From IMG/VR virus record IMGVR_UViG_3300031379_000034, positions 1 through 21,175 of that record: 21,175 nucleotides of DNA. The stretch is one strand, 5' to 3'. Position 1 is the first letter of the stretch, and the number at the start of each line of letters is the position of its first letter. The notes under the pieces were generated by a model. The model was not told the DNA's origin and made no database searches. It was given only the letters and a program-made list of their open reading frames with translations. Shown here one piece after another: positions 3,384 through 16,806 of the stretch. The position numbers were made by a program, and so were the translations under genes. The DNA comes from a virus.

Positions 3384-4097
3384 ATGAGTTTTGAAAAAGA
3401 GTTGAATTTTTTCGGTCTCAAGAGAGACTATTCCATTCAGGAATTGAAAGTCGCATTCAGACAAGTTGCGTTTAAAATTCATCCTGATGTTGGTGGTATT
3501 AGAGAAGAATTTGAAAGAGCGATGTCTTTTTTCAATATTCTTTCTAATCAGTGTATTAATTTCGGAAAGAGACCGGACGGTACGGTTGTTGAAGATAAAA
3601 CAGTCGAAGGGCGTAAACTGGTTGATCTCGGGAAGGGGTATCCTATTACCGAAAGTGCTAAAACTTGTGAAGTTTGTAACGGTAAAGGATACACAAGTTT
3701 CAGGAAAGAATGTGATAAGAAATATCAAACTTGTGATGATTGTAACGGAATTGGCCTTTTCAGTTACCCATGTAAAAAGTGTGATGGTAGCGGAAAGTAT
3801 TCAAGGAATGGCAAAATTATAGGGGAATGTAATTTGTGCGGAGGTAGCGGTAGGTTTTATCCCGAGAATAAAAGACCGTGGTGGTTAAGAGGGCCTTATA
3901 GCGCTAATAAATATATTCCAGGGACGATGAAATTTGGCATTCCATGTAAAAAGTGCGGAGGGAGTGGACAGGTTTGGGTACCTGTTATGGGCGATAAGTT
4001 GTTTCACGCCGTTTGCTATGTGTGCGATGGAATTGGCGAGATCAGGATTTTTAATCCTGTATTACCAAGAGGACTTTTTGTTGGAGCGAACAAATAA
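3384..4097 (+). CDS. J-domain protein with six CxxCxGxG zinc motifs
   Basis: J-domain proteins stimulate Hsp70 (DnaK) ATPase and deliver clients. The 237-aa product has an N-terminal J domain (about residues 5-55) with the essential HPD at 33-35. A zinc-finger region of six CxxCxGxG repeats follows, starting at Cys95, Cys117, Cys130, Cys149, Cys188 and Cys211. Typical DnaJ has four such motifs, then large beta-sheet substrate domains; here those C-terminal domains are absent and motifs five and six are separated from four by a Trp/Pro-rich insert (160-187). The Gly/Phe linker is replaced by residues 56-93. The SD is GAGGGG 4 nt before the ATG. The product probably diverts or assists host DnaK, for example in head assembly. 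The J-domain call is strong; the role is inferred. Confidence 0.85.
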   Translation: MSFEKELNFFGLKRDYSIQELKVAFRQVAFKIHPDVGGIREEFERAMSFFNILSNQCINFGKRPDGTVVEDKTVEGRKLVDLGKGYPITESAKTCEVCNGKGYTSFRKECDKKYQTCDDCNGIGLFSYPCKKCDGSGKYSRNGKIIGECNLCGGSGRFYPENKRPWWLRGPYSANKYIPGTMKFGIPCKKCGGSGQVWVPVMGDKLFHAVCYVCDGIGEIRIFNPVLPRGLFVGANK

Positions 4098-5754: not shown

Positions 5755-6105
5755 TTGGAAAGCAAAGATCTCAATCTGTTAGTTATTGATGACGATTTAT
5801 CAATAAGAAGAATGTTGAAAAGGTTGTTAAAAAATCATTTTAAATCTGTAAAAGTTGTAGAATCTTCCACTACAGGAATACATGAAGCGCAAAAAGGCGA
5901 ATTTGACATAATATTAACGGATTGGGAATGTCCGGAACACGACGGAGCAATCAAAGTAATGGATAGCGTAAATATTCCGGTTGTTATAATGACTGGAAAT
6001 ATCGCTAATAAACGTACCGACGTTAAAGTGATTTACAAACCATTTGAAATTGATCACATTATAAGTTCTCTTGTTGAGGCTTATAATAACAAAAATAATA
6101 AATAG
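5755..6105 (+). CDS. Stand-alone CheY-like response-regulator receiver
   Basis: Receiver domains are phosphorylated on a conserved Asp by histidine kinases. The 116-aa product consists of a receiver only, and the full active site is present: acidic pair Asp12-Asp13, phospho-acceptor Asp56 (ILTDWE), Thr80 (VVIMTGN) and Lys95 followed by cis-Pro96 (YKPF). No output or DNA-binding domain follows, so it would act by protein contact or as a phosphate sink. The TTG start, one base after the preceding stop with a weak AAGGG upstream, implies coupled translation. No histidine kinase is in the window, so a host kinase would be the partner. Stand-alone receivers are uncommon in phages. The fold call is firm; the target is unknown. 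Confidence 0.88.
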   Translation: MESKDLNLLVIDDDLSIRRMLKRLLKNHFKSVKVVESSTTGIHEAQKGEFDIILTDWECPEHDGAIKVMDSVNIPVVIMTGNIANKRTDVKVIYKPFEIDHIISSLVEAYNNKNNK

Positions 6106-13574: not shown

Positions 13575-14186
13575 ATGTTGAGTAACTCAATTAAAAGAAT
13601 AGCAATTCCATCCGAAGAAAAAAATAAAAGAATTGTGACCGCCAAAATTATTGGCGAAAGTGATTTGGCGTCGTCAGGCAAAAAAAATCCTGCTTCCGTG
13701 GGGGATAGCGGAATACCCTTAGAAGAAGACGAAGACAAAAAGCGTAAAAAGAAAAAAGAAGTTGACGAAAGTGTTAATAAAAACATATTTGTCCCGATAA
13801 TAAAATCTAATCAACAAGAAAGAACAATAACCGGAATAGTGTTACAACCTGAAGTAGTGGACGCACAAGGCGATATTATGGATAAAGACGTAATACGCAA
13901 AGCTGCCCATCGATTCCTTTCTAAATACAACAAGGCCACTGAATTAGGGTTGATGCACAAATATTTTGGAGACACAGGATTCGAATTGTATGAATCGTGG
14001 ATTGCTCCACAAGATGTTGTGATTAAAGACGCCTTGGTCAAAGAAGGTTCTTGGCTTATGACTGTATACGTTGGAAAAGATAAAATATGGAAAATGGTAA
14101 ACGATGGAAAACTTAAAGGATTTTCTATTGGCGGCAAGGCAAAAGCCAAGAGCATAAGTAATGAAAAAGAGGGACTAGATGGCTAA
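13575..14186 (+). CDS. XkdF-like putative prohead protease
   Basis: The XkdF family is annotated as phage serine proteases that process scaffold and capsid during maturation. The 203-aa product has a charged low-complexity N-terminus (residues 25-65, EEDEDKKRKKKKEVDES) followed by the family domain (about 75-195). Recognisable segments are TGIVLQPEVVDAQGDIM, IRKAAHRFLSKY, LMHKY, YESWIAPQDVVI, GSWLMTVYVGKDKIWKMV and GKLKGFSIGGKAK. I cannot assign catalytic residues with confidence. ATG 13575 follows GAGGTG closely. It overlaps the next gene by 8 nt in another frame. Confidence 0.88.
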   Translation: MLSNSIKRIAIPSEEKNKRIVTAKIIGESDLASSGKKNPASVGDSGIPLEEDEDKKRKKKKEVDESVNKNIFVPIIKSNQQERTITGIVLQPEVVDAQGDIMDKDVIRKAAHRFLSKYNKATELGLMHKYFGDTGFELYESWIAPQDVVIKDALVKEGSWLMTVYVGKDKIWKMVNDGKLKGFSIGGKAKAKSISNEKEGLDG

Positions 14187-14991
14187 TGTTCCAAAGAGAA
14201 GATTCGTAGAATTAAGCGTAGACGAGGTTTCAATAGTTGATAGTCCGGCAAATGAAGAACATTTCATTGTTATTAAAAATTTACAGGATTTACAGGAGGT
14301 AAACATGCCCGGAGAGAAGAACGAAGAAGTCACTCAGGATGTTGTGAAGAATGACGAGACCGCCCAACAGAATCCCGAAAAGGTTTCTGTTGAGGTCGAT
14401 AAGGCTACTGATGAAGCAGTTGCAAAAGCAATGGAACAAGTTGCTGATTTGATTAACAACATCTCAAAGGCTTTTGATAATTCCGGCGAAAAAGACGGAA
14501 GCGAAAGCGACAACAAACAAACGAACGTCAAGAAAGAAGAGAAGAAAGAGAAGGAAGGGGAGGAGACCAAAAAGAACATCGAAGAACCAAAAGTTTCTAT
14601 ACAAGAAGCGGCATCAGAAGCTGTGTACGAAGCGATAGCAAAAGCCAAACGTTTTACGCCAACACGAGAAGCGGCTTTGAAGGCAGCCATAGAAACTTTG
14701 AATAAGTTGGCAAAGGAACTTGGTATGCAAGAAATACCTGTTGGTTCTTCTCCGTCTACAAACACGCCGTCTGGTACTACGTTTGGTTCGAGTTCGATTA
14801 CCAAATCCATGGAAGACTTTGTAACAAAGTTATCAGCAGGCATGGAAAAGATAGTGGAAACCACCAAAAACCTTGGCAGCAGGATGGAGAAAATTGAAAA
14901 GATGGCTGCTCCGTCGAAAAGCGTAGAAGGCGACGGGGAAACCGATAGTAAAGTGGAAAAGAATCAGAATTTTTGGAAGGGCGTCATTTAA
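14179..14991 (+). CDS. Scaffold-like protein with VDEVSIVDSPAN N-terminal segment
   Basis: The 270-aa product starts with a short conserved segment (RRFVELSVDEVSIVDSPANEEHFIVIKN, residues 6-34) that in other phages is associated with XkdF-type protease or scaffold proteins. The rest (45-270) is highly charged, Glu/Lys-rich and probably coiled coil, with a Ser/Thr/Gly linker (~192-212) and a basic end. That is the profile of an internal scaffold that nucleates the capsid shell and is later degraded. It lies between protease and major capsid protein, the usual place. The start overlaps the protease stop (ATGGCTAA), so translation is coupled. An internal start at 14305 would give a shorter form. 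Confidence 0.8.
   Translation: MANVPKRRFVELSVDEVSIVDSPANEEHFIVIKNLQDLQEVNMPGEKNEEVTQDVVKNDETAQQNPEKVSVEVDKATDEAVAKAMEQVADLINNISKAFDNSGEKDGSESDNKQTNVKKEEKKEKEGEETKKNIEEPKVSIQEAASEAVYEAIAKAKRFTPTREAALKAAIETLNKLAKELGMQEIPVGSSPSTNTPSGTTFGSSSITKSMEDFVTKLSAGMEKIVETTKNLGSRMEKIEKMAAPSKSVEGDGETDSKVEKNQNFWKGVI
14305..14991 (+). CDS. Nested short scaffold form from an internal start
   Basis: Inside the scaffold-like gene, in the same frame, a perfect AGGAGG (14294-14299) sits 5 nt before ATG 14305. This is a stronger initiation site than that of the full-length form. It gives a 228-aa product beginning MPGEKNEEV that lacks the VDEVSIVDSPAN segment and keeps the whole charged helical body. Same-frame nested scaffolds are known in tailed phages (for example lambda Nu3 within C). 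Two products from one gene are therefore likely, with the short form being the main scaffold. Confidence 0.65.
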   Translation: MPGEKNEEVTQDVVKNDETAQQNPEKVSVEVDKATDEAVAKAMEQVADLINNISKAFDNSGEKDGSESDNKQTNVKKEEKKEKEGEETKKNIEEPKVSIQEAASEAVYEAIAKAKRFTPTREAALKAAIETLNKLAKELGMQEIPVGSSPSTNTPSGTTFGSSSITKSMEDFVTKLSAGMEKIVETTKNLGSRMEKIEKMAAPSKSVEGDGETDSKVEKNQNFWKGVI

Positions 14992-15045: not shown

Positions 15046-16230
15046 ATGCCTGATATTTCAAACGAAGAATTAGTACAAAAAGCAGTTATTACGGCGGACG
15101 CCTTAGCTAGCAGCGGTAAATTGAATACGGCGCAATCAAATCGTTTCATCGATTACGTGATTGACGAAACGGCGTTAAAAGACAACGCAAGGATTATCCG
15201 ATTCAGAAATGAATCCCTAGATATCGATAAGATTGGCGTTGGCGCAAGACTCGCTGTTCCGAAATCAGAAGCCAGAGACCCTGGCATTCGTAGGGGCGTC
15301 ACGACCTCCAAAATCACGCTAACCCCTAAAGAGATTATGGTTCCTTTTGAGATTGGCGATACGTTCCGAGAGATAAACATCGAGGGCGATAGCATCGAAA
15401 ATCACATAATCTCTATGATGGCCCGACAAGCCGCTAACGACATCGAAGAGTTGTATATCAACGGCAACACGTTAGGTCCGGCAGAGATTGAAGGGAATAT
15501 AGTTCCCGGTGGAAGCGCTACTCAATACATCAAAGACAGTTATTTAGCGTTGTTCGATGGTTGGTTGAAGCTTCTCGATAGCGCAAATATTGTTGACGCA
15601 GAAGGAGCTAACATCGGCCTTAGCGTTCTTGGTAAAACGTTTAGAGCGATGCCAACCAAATACCGTCGAATATTAAAGGACATGCGCTTCTATATGGCTC
15701 CTGATTTGGAGCAAATTTATTACGAGAAACTTTCCACCAGAGCCACTTCGTTGGGCGATTCGGTGGCGGGCGGAATGGGACATCGACCGTTCGGCATTCC
15801 TATAGTCGGCGTTCCTCTGCTTGACTTCTTGCCTTCTATAACGGAACACCACACGTTTACAGTCGGCTCTACATATTCATTAGCAAACGCTCCTGTTCAA
15901 AATGTTGTTATCACTCCAGCAACACTAGATGATACGCCTACTACTCCTTATGTAGAGGACACTGCTTATACGTTGAATGAAGCTACCGGATTGATAACCG
16001 ATATTGGCAATGCTCTCGGCGCGGCTAAAATAACATACGACGCAAATCCTGAAATTCTTCTTACGCACATGAACAACCTCATCGTAGGAATCGGAAGAGA
16101 CGTTAGAATCGAAAAAGACCGTGACATCTTTAAGGGCGTCAACCAATACGCTATAACCTTGAAAGTTGCGGTGCAAATTGAAGAATTAACGGCAGCGGTG
16201 AAGACTCGTAACGTAGGCCAAGGCGTTTAA
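15046..16230 (+). CDS. Major capsid protein (HK97 fold)
   Basis: This protein forms the icosahedral shell. The 394-aa product has an HK97-type layout: a helical N-terminus (about 1-45), a long strand and E-loop-like region (60-110, including KSEARDPGIRRGVTTSKITLTPKEIMVPFEIGD), the spine-helix region (MMARQAANDIEELYINGN), and a late segment with AMPTKYRRILKDMRFYMAPDLEQ and FGIPIVGVPLLDF. Residues ~275-335 look like an inserted beta domain (VVITPATLDDTPTTPYVEDTAYTLN ... AAKITYDAN). The SD is AGGAG 8 nt upstream. Codon choice shows more CGT/CGA and ATC than neighbours, fitting high expression. A hairpin precedes the gene and a strong terminator follows it. Confidence 0.92.
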   Translation: MPDISNEELVQKAVITADALASSGKLNTAQSNRFIDYVIDETALKDNARIIRFRNESLDIDKIGVGARLAVPKSEARDPGIRRGVTTSKITLTPKEIMVPFEIGDTFREINIEGDSIENHIISMMARQAANDIEELYINGNTLGPAEIEGNIVPGGSATQYIKDSYLALFDGWLKLLDSANIVDAEGANIGLSVLGKTFRAMPTKYRRILKDMRFYMAPDLEQIYYEKLSTRATSLGDSVAGGMGHRPFGIPIVGVPLLDFLPSITEHHTFTVGSTYSLANAPVQNVVITPATLDDTPTTPYVEDTAYTLNEATGLITDIGNALGAAKITYDANPEILLTHMNNLIVGIGRDVRIEKDRDIFKGVNQYAITLKVAVQIEELTAAVKTRNVGQGV

Positions 16231-16273: not shown

Positions 16274-16305
16274 TCTTTAACTCTAGTCATTAATTGGAGG
16301 CAAAA

Positions 16306-16806
16306 ATGACAATAAAAGCAAGAGTGGAACTGATAGGAAGTTTCACGCACAACAGCCACTGGAGGAAATTCCGTAAAGGAAGTCCTCAAATCCTTACTAA
16401 TCCGTCAGAAATACAATATTACCAAAACCAATACGGTTTTGATGTTGTATTATTAGATTCGGAAACAAAAGAAAAAGTCGTAAAAGAAGTAATTAAAAAA
16501 GTGAAATCAAAATCCAAAACGAAAGTTAATGACGACGTTGTAAAGTCGGAAGAAAACGAAGCAGAGGAAGAGCACTACGAAGACGAAGAATGCGAAGAGC
16601 GTGAAGACGACGAAGAATATGAAGAAGACGACGAAGAATATGAAGAAGAAGACGAAGAGGAGGAAGATACCGGTTATACAGAAGGGATGCTCAAAGATTT
16701 CAAGAAATCACAATTGAAATCCCTTGCCAACGATTTGGAATTAGATATCGAAGGGACAAAGAAAGAATTGATGGCTAGAATAATAGACGCCACCAATCAA
16801 TCATAA
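16306..16806 (+). CDS. Acidic protein with C-terminal SAP/HeH-like domain
   Basis: The 166-aa product has three parts: an N-terminal small beta-like domain (1-50), a Lys-rich then extremely acidic linker (55-128, including tandem DDEEYEE), and a C-terminal helix-extended-helix segment (about 130-162, MLKDFKKSQLKSLANDLELDIEGTKKELMARI) of the SAP/HeH type that usually contacts DNA or protein. Such proteins often lie after the capsid gene in tailed phages, near the head-tail connector genes. ATG 16306 is supported by TTGGAGG upstream (the in-frame TTG 16294 is part of the SD). Its role in the virion is not established. Confidence 0.75.
   Translation: MTIKARVELIGSFTHNSHWRKFRKGSPQILTNPSEIQYYQNQYGFDVVLLDSETKEKVVKEVIKKVKSKSKTKVNDDVVKSEENEAEEEHYEDEECEEREDDEEYEEDDEEYEEEDEEEEDTGYTEGMLKDFKKSQLKSLANDLELDIEGTKKELMARIIDATNQS
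16606..16647 (+). repeat. Two tandem 21-nt units encoding DDEEYEE
   Basis: A 21-nt unit (16606-16626) is repeated exactly at 16627-16647 within the acidic linker of the preceding gene. Surrounding GAA/GAC-rich sequence is a degenerate extension. It probably grew by slippage and its copy number may vary between relatives. Confidence 0.8.

Follow-up and report, generated by a model that had tools for sequence, protein, structure and literature searches.

Why does the gene lying between the head maturation protease and the major head protein of this virus contain a second, strong, in-frame translation start, and what is the N-terminal extension that this start would leave out? The window (the whole 21,175-base virus record analyzed here) contains a head module made of a large terminase, a portal, a Mu F-like protein, an XkdF-type protease, an ORF in the scaffold position (ORF2, 14179-14991) and a presumed major head protein (15046-16230), assigned by its position and by a match to phrog_1623 (virion structural protein, E=1.2e-76). 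From the protease to the major head protein, all features discussed lie on the plus strand. The 203-residue ORF at 13575-14186 matches PF14550 (E=7.3e-29; 100.8 bits for a gathering threshold of 24) and phrog_3017 (E=4.6e-33). It displays a His within GLMHKY and a Ser within GFSIGG; in the numbering of a 133-residue protease piece, H58 and S114 are invariant in A1. This ORF is predicted to encode a phage S78_2 / XkdF head maturation protease. It ends ahead of the final EVSxVDxPAN segment, and the EVSxVDxPAN motif was not found in it. The VSxVDxxAN segment, which is known from fused members of the family and lies outside the PF14550 model, is not in the protease ORF but in ORF2, and the same holds for all split relatives. 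The two ORFs are in different frames and overlap by 8 nt.

ORF2 has two candidate starts. ATG 14179 would give a long form of 270 residues (14179-14991), comprising the protease segment and the scaffold, while ATG 14305, codon 43 of the ORF, would give a short form of 228 residues (14305-14991), the scaffold body alone, ending in NFWKGVI. The first-pass annotation had proposed these two products, and the ORF and in-frame ATG that they call for are present. As it also stated, a perfect AGGAGG (14294-14299) stands 5 nt (taaac) ahead of the internal ATG, 42 codons into the gene, and this start is the stronger one: the pairing energy with the anti-Shine-Dalgarno 16S tail is -11.6 kcal/mol at 14305 versus -6.3 kcal/mol at 14179. 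The extended Shine-Dalgarno sequence AGGAGGT (14294-14300) is the strongest internal site in the window. Indeed, ATG 14305 is a clear outlier, since the next best of the 111 internal in-frame ATGs in the 29 window ORFs only reaches -6.4. Predicted accessibility is alike at the two sites. The upstream start had been thought to rely on the 8-nt overlap with the protease. The overlap is real, but ATG 14179 has its own moderate Shine-Dalgarno-like sequence, AGAGGG (14168-14173), at a spacing of 5 nt; thus, this start does not depend on the overlap alone. Moreover, a TAG at 14176-14178 ends the frame of ORF2 immediately upstream, making 14179 the earliest possible start near the overlap. A tandem 9-nt repeat of the GATTTACAG type (14281-14299) is found immediately ahead of the internal Shine-Dalgarno sequence; two relatives (L007 and L008) have a single unit, so the linker varies in length while staying in frame.

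Loss of the internal site in close relatives would have spoken against two forms. This comparison was run and the site is retained: AGGAGGTAAACATG is identical in eight close viral contigs, several of which are nearly identical to one another and therefore count for fewer than eight independent cases. In L009, where the protease is 57% identical, AGGAGG and an in-frame ATG persist, with changed neighbors and another spacing. Codon changes among the close relatives number 0-3 nonsynonymous versus 4-8 synonymous in the 42-codon extension, and 11-43 nonsynonymous in the scaffold body. This pattern, together with the identical site, indicates that the extension is kept as protein and the internal site as DNA. 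It bears directly on the possibility that only the short form is made and that 14179 is a mis-annotated start, for which the far greater strength of the internal site could be invoked. However, close relatives conserve the extension at the protein level, its motif recurs across phages, a 9-nt length difference among the close relatives preserves the frame, and the upstream ATG has a Shine-Dalgarno sequence, which leaves this possibility highly improbable. Two forms from two starts are likely, with translation of both predicted, and nested tethered and free scaffolds, as first proposed, are the reading that conservation appears to support best.

The nature of the extension was addressed by profile comparison. 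The N-terminus of the long form, FVELSVDEVSIVDSPANEEHFIVIK, matches a segment found inside the protease chain in other phages; the segment proper, RRFVELSVDEVSIVDSPANEEHFIVIK, spans 14197-14277. A profile of split segments matched that of the N-terminal segment of fused XkdF proteins (98.4%, E=7.8e-15). Taken singly, 8 of 25 split segments matched Peptidase_S78 (PF04586) and 24 of 25 matched phrog_3017. Peptidase_S78 was matched with E=0.0067 by the best single member and with E=0.14 by that of the window, whose match covers positions 129-152 of 165, close to the C-terminal end of the domain. The match of the split segment to HK97 alone is weak, PDB sequence searches gave no useful match, and tblastn of ORF2 against named phages gave none.

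The segment occupies different places in different phages. In HK97 gp4, a like segment, LREISVCTFPAN, containing LREISVCTFPANEQ, is located in cis, C-terminal to the Ser motif and strand. In the fused XkdF proteins of Bacillus PBP180, Lactococcus 28201, Enterococcus EG-TP1 and Dulem virus 37, a like segment, VSYVDKAANQKKFFLMK, lies N-terminal to the protease domain within a single chain (N-fused). In C-fused proteins of Bacillales prophages, from Thermoactinomycetaceae, Geobacillus and Aneurinibacillus (L208, L211-L214 and L221), the segment NAVSLVDEPxVPKAKFLVIKS follows the protease in cis, ahead of the scaffold part, and phiCh1 also has its segment, SEISDVDIPAV, in cis after the protease. 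Finally, the segment opens a following gene in the window, MSTV1, RcZahn, RHph_TM16, RcTiptonus, DC31, Boevelstad and Curvibacter P26059A. Judged from these sequence comparisons, the extension is very likely homologous to the protease segment.

Loci were picked on protease similarity and not on the segment. The first-screened loci comprised 75 split and 18 N-fused cases and none with the segment in both places, as scored with a motif pattern written after examples had been seen and completed by eye with a few weak forms. In every split locus examined, the protease ORF is devoid of the segment and a following gene carries it N-terminally. Three further loci were resolved on inspection: phiCh1, with its segment in cis, and two apparent exceptions (L056 and L100), which have it in a gene further downstream, beyond about 850 nt of inserted DNA and an ORF of 82 residues. 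The split layout appears to recur across many unrelated phages. An 8-nt overlap, and fusion of the segment in other phages, might also suggest that programmed frameshifting joins the protease and ORF2 in one chain. However, the window allows a shift only within 14179-14186, and among the split loci the relative frame of the two ORFs is variable (33/27/15) and their spacing ranges from -82 to +588 nt, with other ORFs between them in places. Frameshift fusion was rejected because frames and spacing vary in this way, and we give it very little credence. At the Curvibacter P26059A locus (L019), a GIY-YIG endonuclease gene (3386-3991) separates the protease from the segment-bearing ORF, an arrangement that resembles insertion of a mobile gene at the place of the split.

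Internal starts were also assayed across the family, the tested site being an in-frame ATG 8 to 26 codons past the segment (a range set after the first loci had been seen) and the control being same-length windows further down the same genes. A pairing energy of -6 or lower was found in 39 of 58 non-redundant split loci versus 39 of 761 control windows, and the -8 level was reached in 27 split loci versus 11 control windows. About one third of the non-redundant split loci lack a good Shine-Dalgarno/ATG at the tested place. These counts bear on the possibility that the gene yields the long form alone and that the internal site simply results from the coding of a Gln-Glu-Val stretch. The region is Glu-rich and consequently yields many Shine-Dalgarno-like sites by chance: a synonymous-codon null that kept the protein (200 runs) gave 10.6±2.3 of 58 at -8. 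Nevertheless, the observed number well exceeds the null maximum of 17, ATG itself is enriched 10-19 codons past the segment, and 14305 is the strongest of the 111 sites in the window; production of the long form only is thus unlikely. Prokaryote genomes, added later, gave a further set of loci with the same site; its pairing energy is mostly -6.3 and reaches -12.0, and many of these loci are close kin from Myxococcota. An internal Shine-Dalgarno/ATG was detected in 26 of 33 non-redundant N-fused loci (null 15.2±2.7), and the six C-fused loci include four with a site at an ATG and one with a site at a GTG. Since such sites occur in split, N-fused and C-fused loci, a scaffold-only start seems to be a general feature of the family, irrespective of the position of the segment.

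The structure of the segment was predicted with AlphaFold2. In L102, a natural N-fused protein, it forms a strand at residues 15-30. For the split type, a relative with both ORFs in one frame (L034) was modeled by reading the protease through its stop, entered as a residue, into ORF2. In this model, which represents a relative rather than the window and in which the two chains are covalently linked, residues 143-156 (RFLDLSVNEISVVD) form a 14-residue strand past a low-confidence linker; the blocks that hold it have mean pLDDT values of 95 and 92. All other strands belong to the protease, except for a two-residue bridge (166-167). A strand of this length requires a partner, and the model therefore suggests that it pairs with the protease. 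Alternatively, the extension could be a signal for targeting or cleavage that the protease recognizes, and no part of its fold, as its N-terminal position on a protein that the protease may digest would allow. Two points argue against such a signal: a strand is confidently predicted, and in three other architectures the homologues share one chain with the protease domain, lying within it or right beside it. We regard this reading as quite unlikely.

Altogether, we consider it probable that the best explanation of this locus is a split protease that receives a strand from the long scaffold, combined with a nested start for free scaffold. The ribosome would end the protease at 14186 and start or restart at 14179, beside the stop, so that the long form would be made next to a new protease. 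The first 35 or so residues of the long form would supply what the protease ORF is missing, namely the beta strand(s) that close its herpesvirus-protease-like fold. By docking on the protease, a probable interaction between separate chains, the long form would complete it in trans and tie the scaffold to it; non-covalent binding would here stand in for the single chain by which fused protease-scaffold proteins achieve this in cis. The short form started at 14305, without the strand, would be the bulk free scaffold; the strong internal site would produce it in excess, and the ratio of the two starts would set the proportion of protease-bound to free scaffold. Such an excess would fit what is seen in HK97 proheads, where the protease is present in low copy number: about 60 for 415 head proteins (PMC12749128). 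In phage proteases, the third catalytic residue is C-terminal to the Ser (PMC7411985, PMC5694885). The strand may carry such a residue, but neither of two candidates, the Glu before VS (61 of 66 split loci) and the Asp of VD (59 of 66), is invariant, and this Glu is not found in the fused types.

The remainder of ORF2, located between the protease and the major head protein, gave no family match above the cut-off, and we infer from this position that it is a scaffold. Its C-terminus, FWKGVI (14968-14988), is common to both forms. A (F/L/M)WxG(V/I)L end, of the WxGVL type, recurs in many relatives, and the split-type ends resemble those of fused XkdF proteins (IWDGLL, YLAGIL). This conserved end may be a contact with the head protein.

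It has long been asked how prohead proteases are recruited and what holds them inactive while the shell is still being assembled. If the proposed mechanism is true, a protease that is incomplete without scaffold would link activation to head assembly and offer a simple answer. It would also explain the apparently truncated proteases, and the scaffolds with an odd conserved head, of many phages, and would improve the annotation of both genes. With less assurance than for the window itself, we lean towards a widespread class of tailed phages in which a split protease obtains in trans, from the long scaffold isoform, a closing beta strand and perhaps also an acidic residue of its active site. In this class, the protease would be incomplete until it met the scaffold, and the nested start would give free scaffold.

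Nested scaffold starts are already known. In lambda C/Nu3, a longer frame encodes protease and scaffold, and an in-frame start within it yields the scaffold alone, according to Shaw and Murialdo (1980) as cited in PMC8508860; the lambda protease carries an S49 annotation (PMC10695390). The window would work like C/Nu3, with an in-frame internal start and its own Shine-Dalgarno sequence for the scaffold alone (here read from the DNA only), yet its arrangement differs: lambda protease and scaffold form one gene, whereas here the protease has a separate ORF in a different frame and the long form carries the protease strand only. XkdF-type protease-scaffolds (PBSX-like, Lactococcus 28201, Bacillus PBP180; PF14550 / phrog_3017) share the protease family, the VSxVDxxAN segment, a similar scaffold tail and the internal Shine-Dalgarno/ATG, but have the segment at the protease N-terminus in one chain and not at the opening of the next gene. 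HK97 gp4 (Peptidase_S78) has its segment on the C-terminal side of the Ser motif but in cis, and HK97 has no separate scaffold, this role being played by the delta domain of its major capsid protein (PMC12749128). In two-polypeptide phage endolysins, one gene with two in-frame starts also gives two isoforms, which form a complex (PMC9430671), but these are lysis enzymes and unrelated proteins. A limited search of open-licence papers found no description of a strand carried by the scaffold.

Three other genes of the window deserve mention. A response regulator receiver domain (5755-6105; PF00072, E=2e-10) stands alone in this phage, and the product of 3384-4097 is DnaJ-like, its central domain being a zinc finger (PF00684). 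Directly after the major head protein, ORF 16294-16806 encodes a protein that is very acidic and has a SAP domain at its C-terminus.
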